Source: Antedon mediterranea (lineage: Eukaryota; Echinodermata; Crinoidea; Comatulida; Antedonidae). From it: a DNA stretch of 64,000 nt. Where the stretch lies: assembly GCF_964355755.1 (NCBI RefSeq), contig NC_092675.1, positions 18,862,912 through 18,926,911 on the forward strand. The letters run 5' to 3'. Under the pieces are notes generated by a model, which worked only from the letters and a program-made list of their open reading frames with translations, had not been told where the DNA came from and did no database searches. Shown here in pieces: positions 7,268-50,270 of the stretch (positions are counted from its first letter, which is position 1; each line of letters begins with the position of its first letter). The translations under genes were made by a program, and so were the position numbers.

Positions 7268-7690
7268 TTGCCGACTACCAATTTGCTGATTCCCAGTTTG
7301 CCGAGTCTAGGTAGCCGATTCCCAGTTTGCCGAGTCTAGGTTGCCGAATCCTGGTTTGCCGAGTCTAGGTTGCCGATTCCTGGGTTGCCGGGTTTAGTTT
7401 TCTGAATCCCAGTTTGCCGAGTCTAGGTTGCCGATTCCTGGTTTGCCGAGTCTATGTTGCCGATTCCTGGTTTGCCGAGTCTAGGTTGCCGATTCCTGGG
7501 TTGCCGGGTTTAGTTTTCTGAATCCCAGTTTGCCAAGTCTAGGTTGCCGATTCCTAGTTTGCCGAGTCTAGGTTGCCGATTCCCAGTTTGCCGAGTTTAG
7601 GATGCCGATTCTTGGTTTGCCGAGTCTAGGTTGCCGATTCCTAGTTTGCCGAGTCTAGGTTGCCGATTCCTGGTTTGTCGAGTTGACAGA
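7268..7690. repeat. 29-bp minisatellite with a four-unit higher-order period
   Basis: Around 14 copies of a 29-bp unit built from TTGCCGATTCC(T/C)(G/A)GTTTG and CCGAGTCTAGG. A distinctive variant, GGGTTGCCGGGTTTAG followed by TTTTCTGAATCCC, occurs at about 7381 and again at about 7497. These are 116 bp (four units) apart, which shows higher-order amplification. Confidence 0.9.
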
Positions 7691-14919: not shown

Positions 14920-15266
14920 CATAATCTGGGTTCTAGGACACCTACCCCCTAGACAGTTACCCCCCGGATGTTTACCACCCGGACAACTACCCCCTTAGGA
15001 CAACTACCCCCCGGACAACTACCCCCCGGACAACTACCCCCCGGACAACTACCCCCTTAGGACAACTACCCCCTTAGGATAACAACCCCCCGGACAACTA
15101 CCCCCCGGACAACCACCCCCTTAGGACAACTACCCCCTTAGGATAACTACCCCCCGGGTAACTACCCCCCGGTCAACTACCCCCCGATCAACTACCCCCC
15201 CCCCCCCCCCCCCATCCAAAAGTAGACAAATATATAGGACCGGTTTCTGTAAAAATGAAATCATCT

Positions 15267-15725
15267 GTTTTTAACGGGTGTTTCGAAAATAGAGACCCGA
15301 GACCAGAGACCTGACACGAGACCCAATACGAAAAGGGAGACCTATATTTGGGTCTCCCTTTTCGTATATTAGGGTCTCCCTTTTCGTATAGTGTGGTCTC
15401 TCTTTTCGTATAGTGGGGTCTCCCTTTTCTTATAGTGGGGTCTCTCTTTTCTTATAGTGGGTCTCCCTTTTCGTATATTTGGGTCTCTCATTTTGTATAT
15501 TTGGGTCTCCCTTTCGTATAACTGGGTCTCCCTTTTCGTATATTTAGGTCTCCTTTTTCGTATATTAGGGTCTCCCTTTTCGTATAGTGGGGTCTCCCTT
15601 TTCGTATAGTGGGGTCTCCCTTTTCGTACGTGGGTCTCCCTTTTCGTATATTTAGGTCTCCCTTTTCGTATTGGGTCTCTGGTCTCTGGTCTCGGGTCTC
15701 TAGTTTTGAAACACCCGTTTTTAAC
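15267..15725. mobile_element. Nested MITE with 22-bp tandem repeats and 9-bp TSD
   Basis: GTTTTTAAC occurs directly on both sides (15267-15275, 15717-15725). The 441-bp insert 15276-15716 begins GGGTGTTTCGAAAATAGAGA and ends with the inverse of GGGTGTTTCAAAACTAGAGA. The inverted similarity continues for about 65 bp through CCCGAGACCAGAGACC and CCCAATACGAAAAGGGAGAC. Inside, about 15 copies of a 21-23-bp unit (GGTCTCCCTTTTCGTATAGTG and variants) run in one orientation. A 9-bp duplication fits Mutator-like or foldback elements. It sits inside the older element at 14929-16660. It has no coding capacity. Confidence 0.88.
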
Positions 15726-15774
15726 CGATTATTCTGTTTAACAGCACGCTAGACCCTAGATGCGCTAGATTTAA

Positions 15775-15990
15775 AGTACCGTATTTATTGAAAAAACGGC
15801 CTGGGCTGTTTATTGTTTAGGTGGTTTTTAGGTGGACATTTATTGGAAGAAAGTTGTTTATTCAATGGGAGGGGGTATAATCTAATGGAAATAGACGCCG
15901 ATTATTCCATATGATGTTTCATGGGAGTGACATGGTCACCGTTTATTTGAGGGGAATTTATTTAAAGATCGACGTTTATTCGGTGAGTGA
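15775..15990 (+). repeat. Degenerate TTTATTGG-type repeats
   Basis: Irregularly spaced copies of the core GTTTATT with G-rich continuation (GGTGGACATTTATTGGAAG, GTTGTTTATTCAATGGGAGG, CGTTTATTTGAGGGGAATTT, CGTTTATTCGGTGAG) at about 15-50-bp intervals. Probably an old, decayed tandem array within the interior of the outer foldback element. Confidence 0.5.
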
Positions 15991-17236
15991 ACATTGAGGT
16001 CAAATATCAAAAGTGATATTATTCTTCAAGTGTACAAAAATACATATATGACAAATTTGAGACAAAAATTAATTCTTTTAAGACCAGTGGTTATCGAAGC
16101 ATTGTCCTGACGAAAAAATTATTATTATTATTAGCGAACCCAGTCTTTACAGTAAATACAGGGAGTACTATATAATACGTTCGACTATCCTATGATCATG
16201 TGTGACAATCTTCAGTTTATACCAGGCTATATTTATGTTCAATCTTTTACTTTTGTTTACAATAATGAATAGTAATTCGTCAAAGTAACGAATTAAAATA
16301 TAGTTATTAATTCCTATTATACACTGTTGCAGAATCAGGTTGTTGAATGGTCTGGGTGGTTAGGGTGTTCTAAAGGGATAGTTTTCTGGGTGGTAATTGT
16401 CCGGGGGGTAATTGTCCGGGGGGTAATTGTTCCGGGGGGTAATTGTTCCTAGGGGGTAATTGTCCGGGGGGTAGTTGTCCAGGGGGTAGTTGTCCTAAGG
16501 GGGTTGTTGTCCTAAGGGGGTAGTTGTCCGGGGGGTATTTGTCCGGGGGGTAGTTGTCCTAAAGGGGTAGTTGTCCTAAGGGGGTAGTGGTCCAGGTGGT
16601 GGTTGTCCGGGGGGTAGTTGTCCGGGGGGTAAATGTCCAGGGGGTGAATATCCGGATACGCATAATCTGCAATGACTCCAATTGCGAGACACTAAAACAA
16701 TCGTTTATTATCCACCAACAGTTCCACAATTACTATATAAAGTATAATATAAACGGCAATTTTTTTTTTAACTGGCCACGTCACGACGTCATCCGTGATG
16801 AGGAAAAGGTTGATGTATGGGTGTGGCGAGAGCGGACCAAAAGCTTCTGCCGTCTCAGCGTCTATCTCATGCATACTGTGCTGTATCTATAAATGATTAC
16901 TGTACTTCGTCTACGCTATTCATTTGTAACCATGTGATTAGTGATTAACATTGTACTGTAAAACCTGACCACATCCTAGTCAGACAATGTTTTAATAATT
17001 TGTTGGCTTTAACAACAAAATGCATCATTTACTTTATCCATTTGTTAATAACTTTTGCTTTTTGTAATTGTTCTTAGCAAAAGCTTATAATTAGTTGTAA
17101 TGCCTTCATCGTTTAAAAAAAATATAAGCAGAAGCCCTTTTGTGGCAGCCAACATAAACTACAGTGTTCAAACATATACAGTATTTTCGCTTGTGCATTT
17201 CATGTGAAGCACCCTCCTTCATGGGGGTGCCCCTTA

Positions 17237-17621: not shown

Positions 17622-20600
17622 TTATTTCTTGGCAGCTTGTTGCGCCTTCAACACCCGATGAACGATCTTCTGTTCTTCAAGAAGAAAAGCACGTACAATC
17701 CTGGAAAACATAAATTAGAAATTTGTAATAAATGATTCATAATTGACTAAGATTGAGATAGATCAGTTAAGACGTCATCAAACATTAATAGCAGACATTT
17801 ATAGTTTCATTTATACAAGGAAGACATTTATTTTTTAGAGAAAACATACATGTTTATATATTGTCTGTTCTTTAGTATTAAAAATTTCTGTTGAAATCAA
17901 CATTAAAAATATTTATCATTTTAATGAGATAATATTCTGTGCAAGTTGCTTACTGATGAGATACAAAATATTTTTATTGCCTAATGTCGCGTCACCTGTT
18001 TATAATCCAAAAATAATTTCCAGACAATTAAAATATTCATATTTTAAACAAAATGGTATTCATAACAAAATGCTACATTTCTCAAAAAAAAAAAAGGAAA
18101 AAAGCTTTATTAGAGCTTGTTAGTAACAAGGTTGTAAGAAGTTGAGGATGTGACTTCAGGTGTTTTTTTGCTTTTCTAACTACTACAGGTGTAGGCTACT
18201 AACAATTTCCTTCAAATTTGTTGCTCTATAAAACATTCTTTTACATGTTGACCACGTTTTCACAGCCTGTTTTCATGCCATGATTATCAGTTTTTGGCAC
18301 TCAATTTACCATGCAAAACACAGCAACACAGCTGGCTCCTAAAAGCTATGGAATGTGCTCATGTTAAACTACATGAACAATTTCAATATTACCATGAAAC
18401 TGTGTTACAATCAATACAAATTAGAAACTGAAATACTTTCCCATACATAAAAAAAAAATAACATAACAATTTAATATTTTTCCATTAGCTTCTTTCAGTT
18501 TACCGCTAGTCTAGTCATTTTCAGTCTTTGCTTCATCTATAGATTCACTTGCATTTTGTGCAAGTTCATTAAATCTAGGTTTTTACCCTTCAAATATAAC
18601 TTCAATTTTAACAGCTTTATTTATATGTCATTTCTTATTTTTCTTTTAAATGTGGTGTCTCTTGTTGCTAATCCTACCGAATTAAAACTTTTTAAAGTAA
18701 ACATGGTTTAAAATACAATCTTAAATGATTGCCATTTGTAATGTGCTATATCTAATTATACACATAGTGAATAATATTTGGAAGTCAATAGTGCACCATA
18801 CATACTGTAGAAATGAATTATTCATTTACAATCCCTTATCATCAGCACATAATATACTACAGCAGACAAACTAACTTGCTATTCCATAAAGTCATTTCAT
18901 ATCTGTGTCAAACATTACAAAAACCCATGTTCAAAACATTATCAATAAGAACAAGTTTGTTTAAATGCATAAATCGTGTCAAAATTATTCTAGTCAATTT
19001 AAAAAAACGATACTTTGTGAATACACTCAAAATAATGGTCAATATAAAAAAAGCATACTTTGTGAATCCACACTTAATTTATGAAATGCAATATACACTA
19101 TTTGAATAACTATATAATAAATATATTGGGATGAGTGTGTGGCGCAGTGTGTTGGACGTTGGACTTCTGATCATAGATCAGGAGGAACAGGAGTTCGCAT
19201 TGCTTGTGTCCTTATTCAAGACACTTGTGTTTGCCTCTCTCCACCCAGGTGTACAAATGGGCATTGATTAAGCGCTACTCTACAGTATATAAGAACAATG
19301 TTTTATTATAATAGCAATCTAGTATTTGCTATGTTAGGGTAAAAGGATAAACAAGGCGTTTGACAGTAGATTCAGATTCACTTTTAAGAAAATACAGGTC
19401 CATGGATTTTAGTAGAGCATGTTGTACTGTACATGTACAGCATAATGCATAAACTAAATAGACATTTATATAATAAAGGACATTAATTTGGAACATAAAC
19501 TGGGTTATGCTTTGCATGCATACAGTATGACAACAAAGGCTAAATTATACACAAGGTAGCTTAATCATACAGTACCAATTATTTCCTTGCAAGCAATTAC
19601 CGCTTACAAATACAGTAGCATTAATTTTTTAATTACATTCAATACAAATTTTAATTGGTTATGGAAAATAATCTGTTTTGCAAACTAGGGTATTGGAACA
19701 TGTTTTCATAATAAAGGAATACAGACTTGTAATCTAAATGTTTAATGCAATGGTTTGAATGTTGTATTGAAAATTTTTTTATCAGTTGTTTTAATGAAAA
19801 AGAGAATCATGAGTCGGCATGTATTCCTTTTAATCCAGATACACAGTTAATCAGTTATACTCTTATCATATGGTTATATTGATAGGTTCAAATAAAAGTT
19901 AATCGCAACTATCCGTAGTAGGCAACTTGACAACCAGCGTTCTCTACAAATTCAAGAAAGGATAAGAAAACAAGATTTGATGGAACTATGTACAGTATGC
20001 AAAGCAGACTACAAGATGAAGCACTTTCAACTCAGGAAAGTTATATATAAAATAAAAAGGTAATAAAAAAAAACCGAAGGATCAACATTTAAAAGGATAT
20101 ATAGAGATTGCTAGCAAATTGATTAATACGTAGAGAAAAATATAGAAACGTAATACTTTTAGATTAAAATTAAGGGAAGATAATCTAGAAGCTGTCCGAG
20201 AGTAGAAAAGACAAAACCTAGTGTAAAAAAGATGGTTAAGGGAAGATAATCTAGAAGCTGTCCGAGAGTAGAAAAGACAAAACCTAGTGTAAAAAAGATG
20301 GTTAAGGGAAGATAATCTAGAAGCTGTCCGAGAGTAGAAAAGACAAAACCTAGTGTCAAAAAGATGGTTAAGGGAAGATAATCTAGAAGCTGTCCGAGAG
20401 TAGAAAAGACAAAACCTAGTGTAAAAAAGATGGTTAAGGGAAGATAATCTAGAAGCTGTCCGAGAGTAGAAAAGACAAAACCTAGTGTCAAAAAGATGGT
20501 TAAAGACAGGGCTACCGTACTGAACAATATCCTACTCTAAGCGAATGTCAGGAAGACAGATACATTTTATCAATAAATTTAAATTTACCACATTCATCAT

Positions 20601-47400: not shown

Positions 47401-50270
47401 CTACATTAACAAAGTCTTATTACAAGTCTTTGGGAGTGGAGTTGTAAATTGTCATTAGAAAAAAATCCTGACATATGACAGGACTTGAACCCAGGACCCT
47501 TGGATTGGCAGCCAAGCATCGTAACCACCAGGCCACAACTCCACTCCAATTATAACACATTGTAGCTAAATTTGGTACAGTAGAACCAAATAATAATCAA
47601 TGTCATCTGTTGTTTTAAAATTGGAAAACAAACAGAGACTACCAGTATATTGACAATTTCAAATTAATCTTGTCACGCCCGTAATGCAAACACATAATTT
47701 CACAACACTTTAGCTGCCAGAATTGATTTATTGAATGCATAGATTTTTAATGAAATAAATAAAGATGTGGTGTTTTGGTTTTTTTTTATGTTAAATTAAT
47801 TAAAAACTACAGTTTCTTGTGAAATAGATATTTATTTCTTTATTTATTTTATTTTGTTTATTTTATTTTATTTATTTATTTTATTCAGTTGACAACCAAC
47901 AGCGATGAAACCGCCACTAACAGATTGAATCTAAACATAATAAACTATAATAATAAATTCAAATAAGCAACAAAAACTTTCAGGGGCAATATACAGTATA
48001 TCGTTTGACTAGGCATACTTATTAATTTAGCTAAATTTTGGAGTTTACACATACCACAGTGTTAGAACTGTACGGTGTGTGTAAGCTTTGGAATTGATTA
48101 TAAGCTAAAGGCAATGTGAAAGGGGATTATAGAGGCTCACCTACTTACTATACTGTACCAATGTTTCTAAGAACAAATATTCTTAAAATAATCAAAAAAT
48201 ATTATTGAATACAGTATGTATTCTCAATTGTTAAATCTTTTTTTTTGGTCATTTGTACAATAATTTCTTAGATTAAGCTTCTTTATTTGTTATGGATATA
48301 TTATTAATTTATAATCATGGTATTCCAAAATAAAAAGATGAATGAATGAATACTACAGTGTTTTGTGTGATGTGCCCATATATGGACATTATGATGTTGT
48401 ATCACTACTATATTTGGTCATATCACTACCATATTTTTGCACATTACACTTTTGAATGAATGAATACTACAGTGTTTTGTGTGATGTGCCCATATATGGA
48501 CATTATGATGTTGTATCACTACTATATTATTTGGTCATATCACTACCATATTTTTGCACATTACACTTTTGAATGAATGAATACTACAGTGTTTTGAATA
48601 CCTAAAAAATAGTTCCAACTGCAAAATTGTATTTAATATGTGATCATTGATTTATTAGGGAGCCCTCGGAATGATGGCAGTACTGATGGGTTCTGGAATG
48701 GTGTGTATGTCAATTCCATACCATGAAGGTCTTGGTATGAAACAGCTAGCCTGGCTTGGCCACAGTGCATTGGTTGGTGGCATACTAGCCCCATTGAGTC
48801 TGCTCGGTGGACCTTTACTTATCCGCGCCGCTTGGTACACTGCTGGCATGGTTGGAGGTAAGTTGTGTGTTAAATTTATTTAACTAATAATGGATAGATA
48901 GATAGATTATTATAATAAACAAATAAATTTACTGGGCTGCTTTAAAGAAATATTATTTCAAAATGCTGGATTCTCTATTGCACATTTAATAATAAAATGT
49001 TCATTATTGTAGGTCTGTCATCTGTTGCTGCCTGTGCCCCCAGCGAAAAATTCTTATACATGGGAGGACCATTGGCTATGGGACTTGGCGTTGTGGTTGT
49101 TGCGAGTTTAGGTAAGTATAGTAATGGTTCATTTTTCTACCAAAATCTTTTCATTCATTTTCATTATGTGTTGTACACTAACTATTCATTTTCTTAAGAA
49201 ATTATTATTATATTTCGATAATACATTTTGCAGGGAGTATGTGGTTCGCCCCAGGTACAGCCATTGGCTCTGGCCTATATGCTGTTAGTGTTTATGGAGG
49301 ATTGGTTTTGTTTGGAGGCTTCATGTTGTACGATACACAGAAGATTATGAAAAAGGCTGAAGTATACCCACTGTATGCAGAAAGGCCCTTTGATCCTATT
49401 AATTCGTATGTCTATTTTTTGTTCTTTATACGTAAATTAACTTGCCAATAGTTATTTATCACTATTATTTTAAGCTTAAAGTAGGTTAGAAACAGTCAAG
49501 AGTTTCAACCCATTGACTTGGTCAGGATTGAACCCTGGTACTAGGTCAGGATTAAACCCTAGCACTACAAGGTCAAGAGTTTCAACCCATTGACTAGGTC
49601 AGGATTGAATCCTGGTACTAGGTCAGGATTGAACCCTGGTACTAGGTCAGGATTGAACCCTAGCACTAAGTCAGGATAGAACCCTAGCACTACAAGGTCA
49701 GGAGTGAACCCTACCACTACAAGGTCAGGAGTGAACCCTACCACTACAAGGTCAGGATTGAACCCTGGCACTACAAAGTCAGGATTGAACCCTTGCGTTA
49801 CAGGTAGGACAGAATGGAACCTGGACCGCCAAGCTACAGCCCCAATATTTATAAATATAATATTTTTTTAATGAATATGTTTAAACCTACTAAATCTGTC
49901 ATAGAGAATCTCCAAGATTCCATTCATTGTTATTGATTGATTGTTCAATATTTTTATATGAATTCAATTAATCATTAATTAATTTTTTCTTTTTTTTATA
50001 TTAATAAATGATTGAGAAAAAATCAATGTAGTGATTGACTGACTGTTGAAACATCAATATTAGTTTGATTAATTAGTCATTAAGTTATATCAATCAAATA
50101 ATCAATTTCTTCAGTGAGTAGGTATCAAATTTGTTATACAGATTGAATAATAACTCGTTTATTTATTTTCTTCATATTTCAGAGCTATCAGTATTTATAC
50201 AGACACAATCAACATATTTATTCGAATGGTAATGATATTATCATCTGGAGGGGGCGGCAAGAGGAAGTAA
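44411..50270 (+). CDS. GHITM: Growth hormone-inducible transmembrane protein (TMBIM5/MICS1), complete
   Basis: Inner-mitochondrial-membrane member of the BI-1/TMBIM family, involved in cristae structure and cation exchange. Seven coding exons: 44411-44612, 45239-45350, 46358-46499, 48659-48857, 49013-49111, 49234-49405 and 50183-50270. All are GT-AG and in phase, 337 residues against 345 in human. The N-terminus is Arg-rich and acid-poor, as in a mitochondrial presequence. Family-diagnostic blocks are GALCYYGLG, FWPQYVRDRI, GGPLLIRAAWYTAGMVGG, CAPSEKFLYMG, VYGGLVLFGGF and LYDTQKIMKKAE, with a C-terminal SGGGGKRK matching the basic tail of the family. Multiple membrane spans lie between about 72 and 325. 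A second in-phase donor exists 21 nt upstream in exon 1. Confidence 0.95.
45385..45740 (+). other. Coding-like patch in GHITM intron 2, unassigned
   Basis: Less AT-rich than its surroundings, with protein-like stretches in two frames (PGEEAAVYAKTVWFPITELR, then SVIEALLERYIMIDKHCQFP running to 45739) separated by stops. I recognise no family. It may be a decayed retrosequence or transposon coding fragment; chance is possible. Confidence 0.3.
46747..46908. mobile_element. MITE, AGCTCTGTCTACACTATC family, copy 2
   Basis: Left AACTCTGTCTACACTATCAA, right inverse of AGCTCTGTCTACACTATCAA, in GHITM intron 3. TTA lies before the left end and TTT after the right. The interior shares GTGCCCATATTTGGACATGA and related words with copies 1 and 3. 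Confidence 0.78.
47461..47545 (-). mobile_element. tRNA-derived SINE head
   Basis: On the minus strand an A box TGGCCTGGTGG (47535-47525) and B box GGGTTCAAGTCC (47492-47481) have near-canonical sequence and spacing. CTTGG...CCAAG can form an anticodon-like stem. No matching acceptor stem was seen, so it is a SINE or tRNA pseudogene rather than an active tRNA. An inverted GGAGTGGAGTTGT copy lies at about 47432. Confidence 0.65.
48339..48600 (+). repeat. Tandem duplication of a MITE interior, about 115-bp unit
   Basis: GAATGAATGAATACTACAGT occurs three times, with two full units of MITE interior sequence (GTGATGTGCCCATATATGGA ... CACATTACACTTTT-like) between. The terminal repeats of the AGCTCTGTC family are missing. 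It lies at the 3' end of GHITM intron 3, ending about 60 bp before exon 4. Confidence 0.8.
49501..49815. repeat. 24-29-bp minisatellite containing B-box-like words
   Basis: About eleven units of AGGTCAGGATTGAACCCT plus GG(T/C)ACTA or AGCACTACA. On the minus strand each unit reads GGGTTCAATCCTGAC, which fits the RNA polymerase III B box (GGTTCRANTCC). It lies in GHITM intron 6. The minus frame 49565-49771 is just this repeat. Confidence 0.88.

Follow-up and report, generated by a model that had tools for sequence, protein, structure and literature searches.

A young family of foldback transposons in Antedon mediterranea and its probable derivation from a Phantom-like Mutator element

An insertion of 1732 bp was found at positions 14929-16660 of the window, the whole stretch of 64,000 nucleotides of Antedon mediterranea DNA (contig NC_092675.1) that was analyzed (Table 1). 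The initial annotation had proposed a foldback-type transposon with an exact 9-bp target-site duplication at this place, and the proposal holds, as CATAATCTG occurs at 9/9 identity on both sides and many other copies of the family carry duplications as well. The two inverted arrays of 15-bp units, reported there as lying about 1.2 kb apart, were recovered by TRF at 14936-15200 (17 copies) and 16375-16645 (17.3 copies), and the longest ungapped pair between the inverted arms is 187 nt at 90% complementarity. The middle part holds a 22-bp minisatellite in an inverted repeat and some 600 bp of further sequence, a layout that matches the foldback class, in which inverted arms made up of short tandem repeats enclose a central domain. 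The minisatellite (15343-15671, within a 59-nt inverted repeat) is a second array that had been overlooked. The termini of the arms do align without gaps, as had been described for the terminal 40 bases, and over their outermost 45 bases they are not identical (30/45 identities between left and right). No open frame of at least 130 codons was found in the element, and the single one in the window lies in a repeat array at 20082-20531.

Table 1. Features of the insertion, with positions counted from the first nucleotide of the window.
Feature	Position	Strand	Observation
Left target-site duplication, CATAATCTG	14920-14928		9/9 identical to 16661-16669
Foldback element, non-autonomous, 1732 bp	14929-16660	+	Both ends found again across the genome
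Left cap, GGTTCTA then GGA	14929-14938	+	Identical in 45/45 copies read
Left arm, 15-bp units (GGACAACTACCCCCC), closes with a C-run	14929-15213	+	Tandem-repeat and inverted-repeat searches
Stretch shared with L035, 89% identity	15200-16122	-	Minisatellite region and 3' flank of transposase gene
Inner inverted repeat around 22-bp minisatellite	15259-15733		Arms 15259-15317 and 15675-15733, 85% complementary
22-bp minisatellite (GGGTCTCCCTTTTCGTATAGTT), about 15 copies	15343-15671	+	Tandem array; same array beside left arm of L035
Right arm, same 15-bp units as left arm, inverted	16338-16660	-	Tandem-repeat and inverted-repeat searches
Right cap, inward CGTATCC then GGA, unlike left cap	16651-16660	-	Identical in 40/40 copies
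Right target-site duplication, CATAATCTG	16661-16669		9/9 identical to 14920-14928

Other tandem arrays were observed elsewhere in the window at 7282-7683 (29/116-bp), 20170-20503 (66-bp) and 49495-49793 (27/77-bp). Among inverted repeats of at least 20 nt, only one was found to flank these other arrays, namely a repeat of 23 nt at 83% around 49495-49793.

A search of the genome (G000, 354 Mb) with the 21-bp ends, allowing up to three mismatches, found 335 left and 260 right ends, compared with 1 and 11 matches for the reversed patterns. When listed ends were paired at distances of up to 30 kb, 84 of 100 left ends had a partner and sixteen had none; seventy of the 84 pairs span 1.4 to 2.6 kb. 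Ten right ends out of the 100 listed (end of C4 and C5) were omitted from this pairing, and some pairs share one right end. We read a total of 45 copies, comprising the window copy, twenty found by left-arm similarity, four long copies and twenty taken from paired ends, the latter including three short copies and four with two left ends. Both ends are in view in forty of them, and L014, L015, L019, L021 and L028 have no right end in the stretch. The loci L069-L072 were read later and stand outside the duplication count.

Copies with duplications, which the initial annotation had expected elsewhere in the host genome, were found in number: among the forty two-ended copies, 26 are flanked by 9-bp duplications (at least 8/9) and nine by 8-bp ones, four have none despite both ends (L009, L017, L049 and L057) and one is cut off, the stretch of L026 stopping 3 bases past the element. 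The exact counts are 22 at 9/9, four at 8/9 and eight at 8/8, together with L024, which was seen by eye to have the 8-bp duplication CCCCTAAG once the outer left end 392 bp upstream is taken. The 9-bp duplications (at least 8/9) occur in 26 of 39 scorable copies. When left and right flanks of different copies are combined instead, 7 of 1521 combinations match this well, and six of these seven are segmental-duplicate pairs. Exact 8-bp duplications occur in eight of the 39 scorable copies versus none of the 1521 mismatched pairings. Both lengths lie within the 8-11 bp given for the MULE superfamily (PMC6446971).

Empty sites were found for two of the insertions. When its flanks are joined, L050 finds three matching places (L061-L063) and L016 two (L064, L065), and at each of them the insert is missing and the duplicated 9 bases occur once; the left duplication copy of L016 differs from its empty sites at the last base and the right copy does not. 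These sites are paralogous and are not alleles. The empty site that the initial annotation had proposed to look for at the window insertion itself was not found among the candidates scored, and may still exist, because the search covered one assembly and 40 of 1039 candidates. The best spanning match for the flanks of L055 is 85% identical without a clean junction and was not counted as an empty site.

The dispersal of the copies, their fixed ends, their differing duplications and the empty paralogous sites leave practically no chance that a static minisatellite or a segmental duplication mimics a transposon here, although segmental duplicates with the same flanks do exist in the family (L011/L022, L016/L025 and L036/L037). 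Pairs with the same flanks and duplications were observed in G000 at C5:8176962/C5:8188797, C1:10541012/C1:11000062 and C1:10004250/C1:10987392. Since the flanks and the duplications are the same within each pair, they are probably segmental duplications that carried the element along.

The copies differ little from one another. In the 34 of the forty copies with an alignable interior, the median K2P divergence is 0.0136 (1.4%) and the maximum 2.7%. Interiors of about 600 bp are identical among L044, L045 and L047, and again between L050 and L051, at different sites with different duplications, and a single base in 604 separates the window copy from L020. The near-identity of the copies means that the family was recently mobile; it has spread recently. 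The window element thus belongs to a real, young transposon family that is ordinary in mechanism.

Giant elements were considered for four of the longest listed end pairs, spanning 17.7 to 20.7 kb and two of them having a common right end, and were rejected. The pair L039+L040 (19,016 bp), the one that was read among long pairs that also include spans of 13.6, 17.7, 18.8 and 20.7 kb, shows no matching duplication between its ends, and the open reading frames inside it presumably resemble those of a BEL/Pao-type retroelement. We therefore treated this pair as unrelated ends or nested insertions and kept it outside the count.

The invariance of the two caps (Table 1) is partly by construction, because the copies were chosen by near match to these ends, with up to three substitutions for the left one. 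Among copies selected by their outermost 21 bases, 33 of 45 show no change in the terminal 37 bases on the left, and 33 of 40 show none in the terminal 36 bases on the right. The arms vary in length from 202 to 437 bp on the left and from 258 to 749 bp on the right in copies with landmarks found and no intervening nested insertion. L041 is a minimal copy of 255 bp that consists of caps and arm units and has an exact 9-bp duplication; either arms and caps are enough for movement, or its middle was lost after insertion.

The results on the quadruplex structures predicted for the arms in the initial annotation are mixed. Both arms pass a G3+ rule with loops of up to 12 and have high G4Hunter-type scores (left-arm mean 1.36 and best 25-nt stretch 3.12; right-arm mean 1.10 and best 1.84). 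The stricter G3+ rule with loops of up to 7 on the G strand is mostly failed, the left arm passing only in its inner C-run (19 nt) and the right arm nowhere. Hairpin formation found no support: folding of the C-rich strand of the left arm was no better than that of shuffled sequences (z = 0.17).

The 26 sites with 9-bp duplications collapse to 23 distinct ones. Most of these are preceded by T (18 of 23) and followed by A (16), with G first in 13, T third in 14 and C ninth in ten, and further out A is found four positions before in 14 and T four positions after in 16. Enrichment over the window composition gives one-sided binomial values of 1e-5 to 7e-3 at positions chosen post hoc, and the weaker of these values are only suggestive because the positions were picked after looking. 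In the eight sites with 8-bp duplications, T comes before in five, G first in five and A after in four. The pattern appears roughly palindromic, as would be expected of a symmetric transposase complex. The target of the window copy itself is off-pattern, with A before, C first, G ninth and C after.

Some copies are composite. In L044-L047, about 670 bp of the left side is followed by a complete element that starts anew, and in each of them the minisatellite sequence CTCCCTTTTC precedes the inner left end. Taken between the outer left end and the right end, the duplication is an exact 9-bp one in three of these copies and an exact 8-bp one in the fourth. A different junction, after ATTTGGGTC, is found in L024/L066 together with an 8-bp duplication. 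Both junctions would be accounted for if an element entered its own minisatellite and the product then moved by means of the outer left end. We tentatively suggest, as a possibility short of a probable account, that the family makes new transposons in this manner: an element would insert itself into the 22-bp minisatellite, and the composite would then move with its outer left and inner right end, one such composite having become a subfamily of its own and the minisatellite serving as a landing pad that rebuilds ends. The composites may instead have arisen by unequal recombination within the array.

The inner 22-bp array was also considered as an independent transposon. Its arm was counted 486 times in the genome (control 0), and the 100 copies listed lie on C1 to C3. 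Independence is unlikely, because 97 of these 100 listed copies are no more than 2 kb from a listed family end, a count to which three places were added by hand. A further repeat, containing ATTGGACGCCATATTGGATTCTGGC, was observed in L008/L015, inside a family copy, and in the right flank of L055. It has at least 39 further copies (40 of 153 candidates scored, one of them being the L055 locus), and one copy interrupts the 22-bp array of a family member.

A search of the genome for the MULE domain gave 36 matches, the best one inside L035, a locus of 4659 bp with the same two 21-bp ends as the window element, both 15-bp arms and the 22-bp minisatellite, flanked by the exact 9-bp duplication ATTTAAAAG. 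The open stretches of L035 follow one another in the order FLYWCH, linker, MULE domain and a C-terminal part of 181 aa. The FLYWCH zinc finger (E 3e-7; 30.9 bits, cut-off 23.6) lies in an upstream open stretch and the Pfam MULE domain (E 3.7e-16; 59.8 bits, cut-off 27.6) in a separate one, in which we take the D, D and E residues picked by eye from known motifs to be the triad. By eye, the intron borders are plausible GT/AG ones, and the FLYWCH and MULE stretches would be joined by splicing. The reading frame is broken between 1688 and 1707 in exon 2, the linker, and L035 is therefore no intact source.

An intact transposase with the family ends was not found in a genome search with the C-terminal exon (13 matches); apart from L035, five of the thirteen exceed 60% identity and all five are partial. 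Whatever drove the recent activity may be missing from the assembly or have escaped the search. Parts of the gene do recur between family parts. Two of the five partial matches lie in L069 and L070, where the last 69 codons directly adjoin the right arm (97% and 96% identity), with one stop codon each in the matched C-terminal stretch. L070 has both ends within 1925 bp and sits in an AT microsatellite, where the duplication is unreadable, while in L069 a right end and no left end was found. L072, of 8268 bp, has both ends and, by eye, ATATTAAAT on both sides.

Two observations concern other MULE-type genes. L071 (G000:C5:17811000-17817000) holds a sister gene with 73-76% nucleotide identity, its MULE exon pieces being 74 and 83% identical; no 15-bp arms were found within the 6 kb read, and the ends of this locus could show how the arms arose. 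Five MULE matches in G000 (C2:1382286, C2:15352026, C3:9339044, C5:1627366 and C11:21020252) have equal scores and an open frame of 651 aa each, and this agreement in score and frame length suggests another, possibly intact Mutator family in the genome.

The window copy has 923 bp in common with the left side of L035 at 89% identity. Besides the minisatellite region, the shared stretch takes in sequence 3' of the gene up to about 320 bp past the stop codon, so that the window copy retains only the 3' flank of the transposase gene. On the strength of this stretch, the window type most plausibly arose by deletion from an L035-like element. The sequence beside the right arm (16123-16375) has no counterpart in L035, which is therefore a relative and not the direct parent.

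We thus consider it very probable that the window element is a non-autonomous, internal-deletion derivative of a Phantom-like Mutator element (MULE) with 15-bp tandem arrays as terminal inverted repeats, moved by a FLYWCH+MULE transposase. The MULE DDE transposase within the same ends in L035 and the long terminal inverted repeats of the window element are Mutator features, and FLYWCH upstream of MULE, presumably in one spliced product, is a Phantom feature. The foldback elements described so far are spread over different superfamilies, and some have no known transposase. The initial annotation had favored a TU-like element. In the sea-urchin TU elements the outer inverted arms consist of 15-bp tandem units, alike in plan to those found here, and the target duplications are 8 bp. 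The gene content of L035 points to a Phantom-like Mutator instead. Membership of the TU family as known from sea urchin, with outer 15-bp-repeat domains and an unknown transposase, is highly unlikely in our judgment: the 15-bp period and the foldback layout agree with it, whereas duplications of 9 bp (26/40) outnumber those of 8 bp (9/40) here. Nor does a shared layout show descent, because Galileo has a similar one with a P-element transposase (PMC3688188). If TU itself were Phantom-like, the two readings would merge.

It is also conceivable, and very improbable, that a different transposase recognizing the same caps moved the window copy, the FLYWCH-MULE gene of L035 being a passenger. In favor of this, only one copy with the family ends and most of the gene was found, its frame broken; against it stand the part of the same gene kept between family parts in L069 and L070, and the duplication length, the 7-bp caps with GGA, the tandem units and the minisatellite next to the gene, all of which fit the descriptions of Tm1 and Phantom (PMC3169594, PMC6446971).

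Under the Phantom-like derivation, full-length relatives would make the FLYWCH zinc finger and MULE DDE transposase from a gene of about four exons. The enzyme most likely binds the repeated arm units as putative sites and most likely cleaves the element at its two differing caps, GGTTCTA-GGA and CGTATCC-GGA. Insertion would follow by cut-and-paste through a staggered cut of 8 or 9 bp, AT-rich and roughly palindromic sites being preferred. The foldback layout is tied to the FLYWCH-MULE transposase by the ends in common, an exact duplication and the varying extents of the gene, and a recently mobile family offers a practical system for asking whether tandem arm units bind the transposase as candidate sites. 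Neither the family nor its sequence words were found in the open-licence papers searched. The roughly palindromic target preference and the composite copies with two left ends are new details.

The closest described relative is Tm1, a Mutator/Foldback family of root-knot nematodes, which has the same plan with different sequences (PMC3169594). Like the family described here, in which the copies were pre-selected by their ends, Tm1 has asymmetric 7-bp terminal motifs followed by GGA and tandem units of 13-15 bp in variable number, duplications of 8-10 bp that are mostly 9, and a rare FLYWCH+MULE transposase copy among many non-autonomous derivatives (PMC3169594). Its unit CGATTCAGTATCCGC and its caps CGGTTAA and CCTACCC, compared by eye, are unlike the letters found here (PMC3169594). 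Differences were also observed in the second, 22-bp minisatellite inside an inverted repeat, in the target preference, for which the Tm1 account describes no clear consensus, and in the interiors, some of which are identical here whereas no two Tm1 elements are stated to be identical (PMC3169594).

The Phantom MULEs of invertebrates, reviewed together with Muta of Aedes, likewise combine FLYWCH and MULE domains with duplications of 8-10 bp, and their inverted repeats of up to 613 bp are long as in this family (PMC6446971). In aphid members of Phantom a minisatellite follows the transposase ORF as in L035, and some Phantom members are listed without FLYWCH or with SWIM (PMC6446971). Plant MULEs with multiple terminal inverted repeats resemble the composite copies in having an extra tandem end and a proper flanking duplication; their inner end has no duplication, and nested insertion was judged unlikely by the authors while being left as one possible route (PMC3310237). 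Unlike in those elements, the extra left end sits inside the family's own minisatellite and at two different junctions.

Galileo and Tetris of Drosophila share the long, internally repetitive inverted repeats (PMC3688188, PMC4079207). The duplications of Tetris are 8-10 bp, as here, and its authors report finding no transposase-bearing copy (PMC4079207), whereas Galileo differs in having a transposase of the P superfamily (PMC3688188). Some of the Galileo repeats bind the THAP domain of its transposase, and such binding is called untested for Foldback and Phantom elements in the same account (PMC3688188); the 15-bp units of the present family are candidate binding sites.
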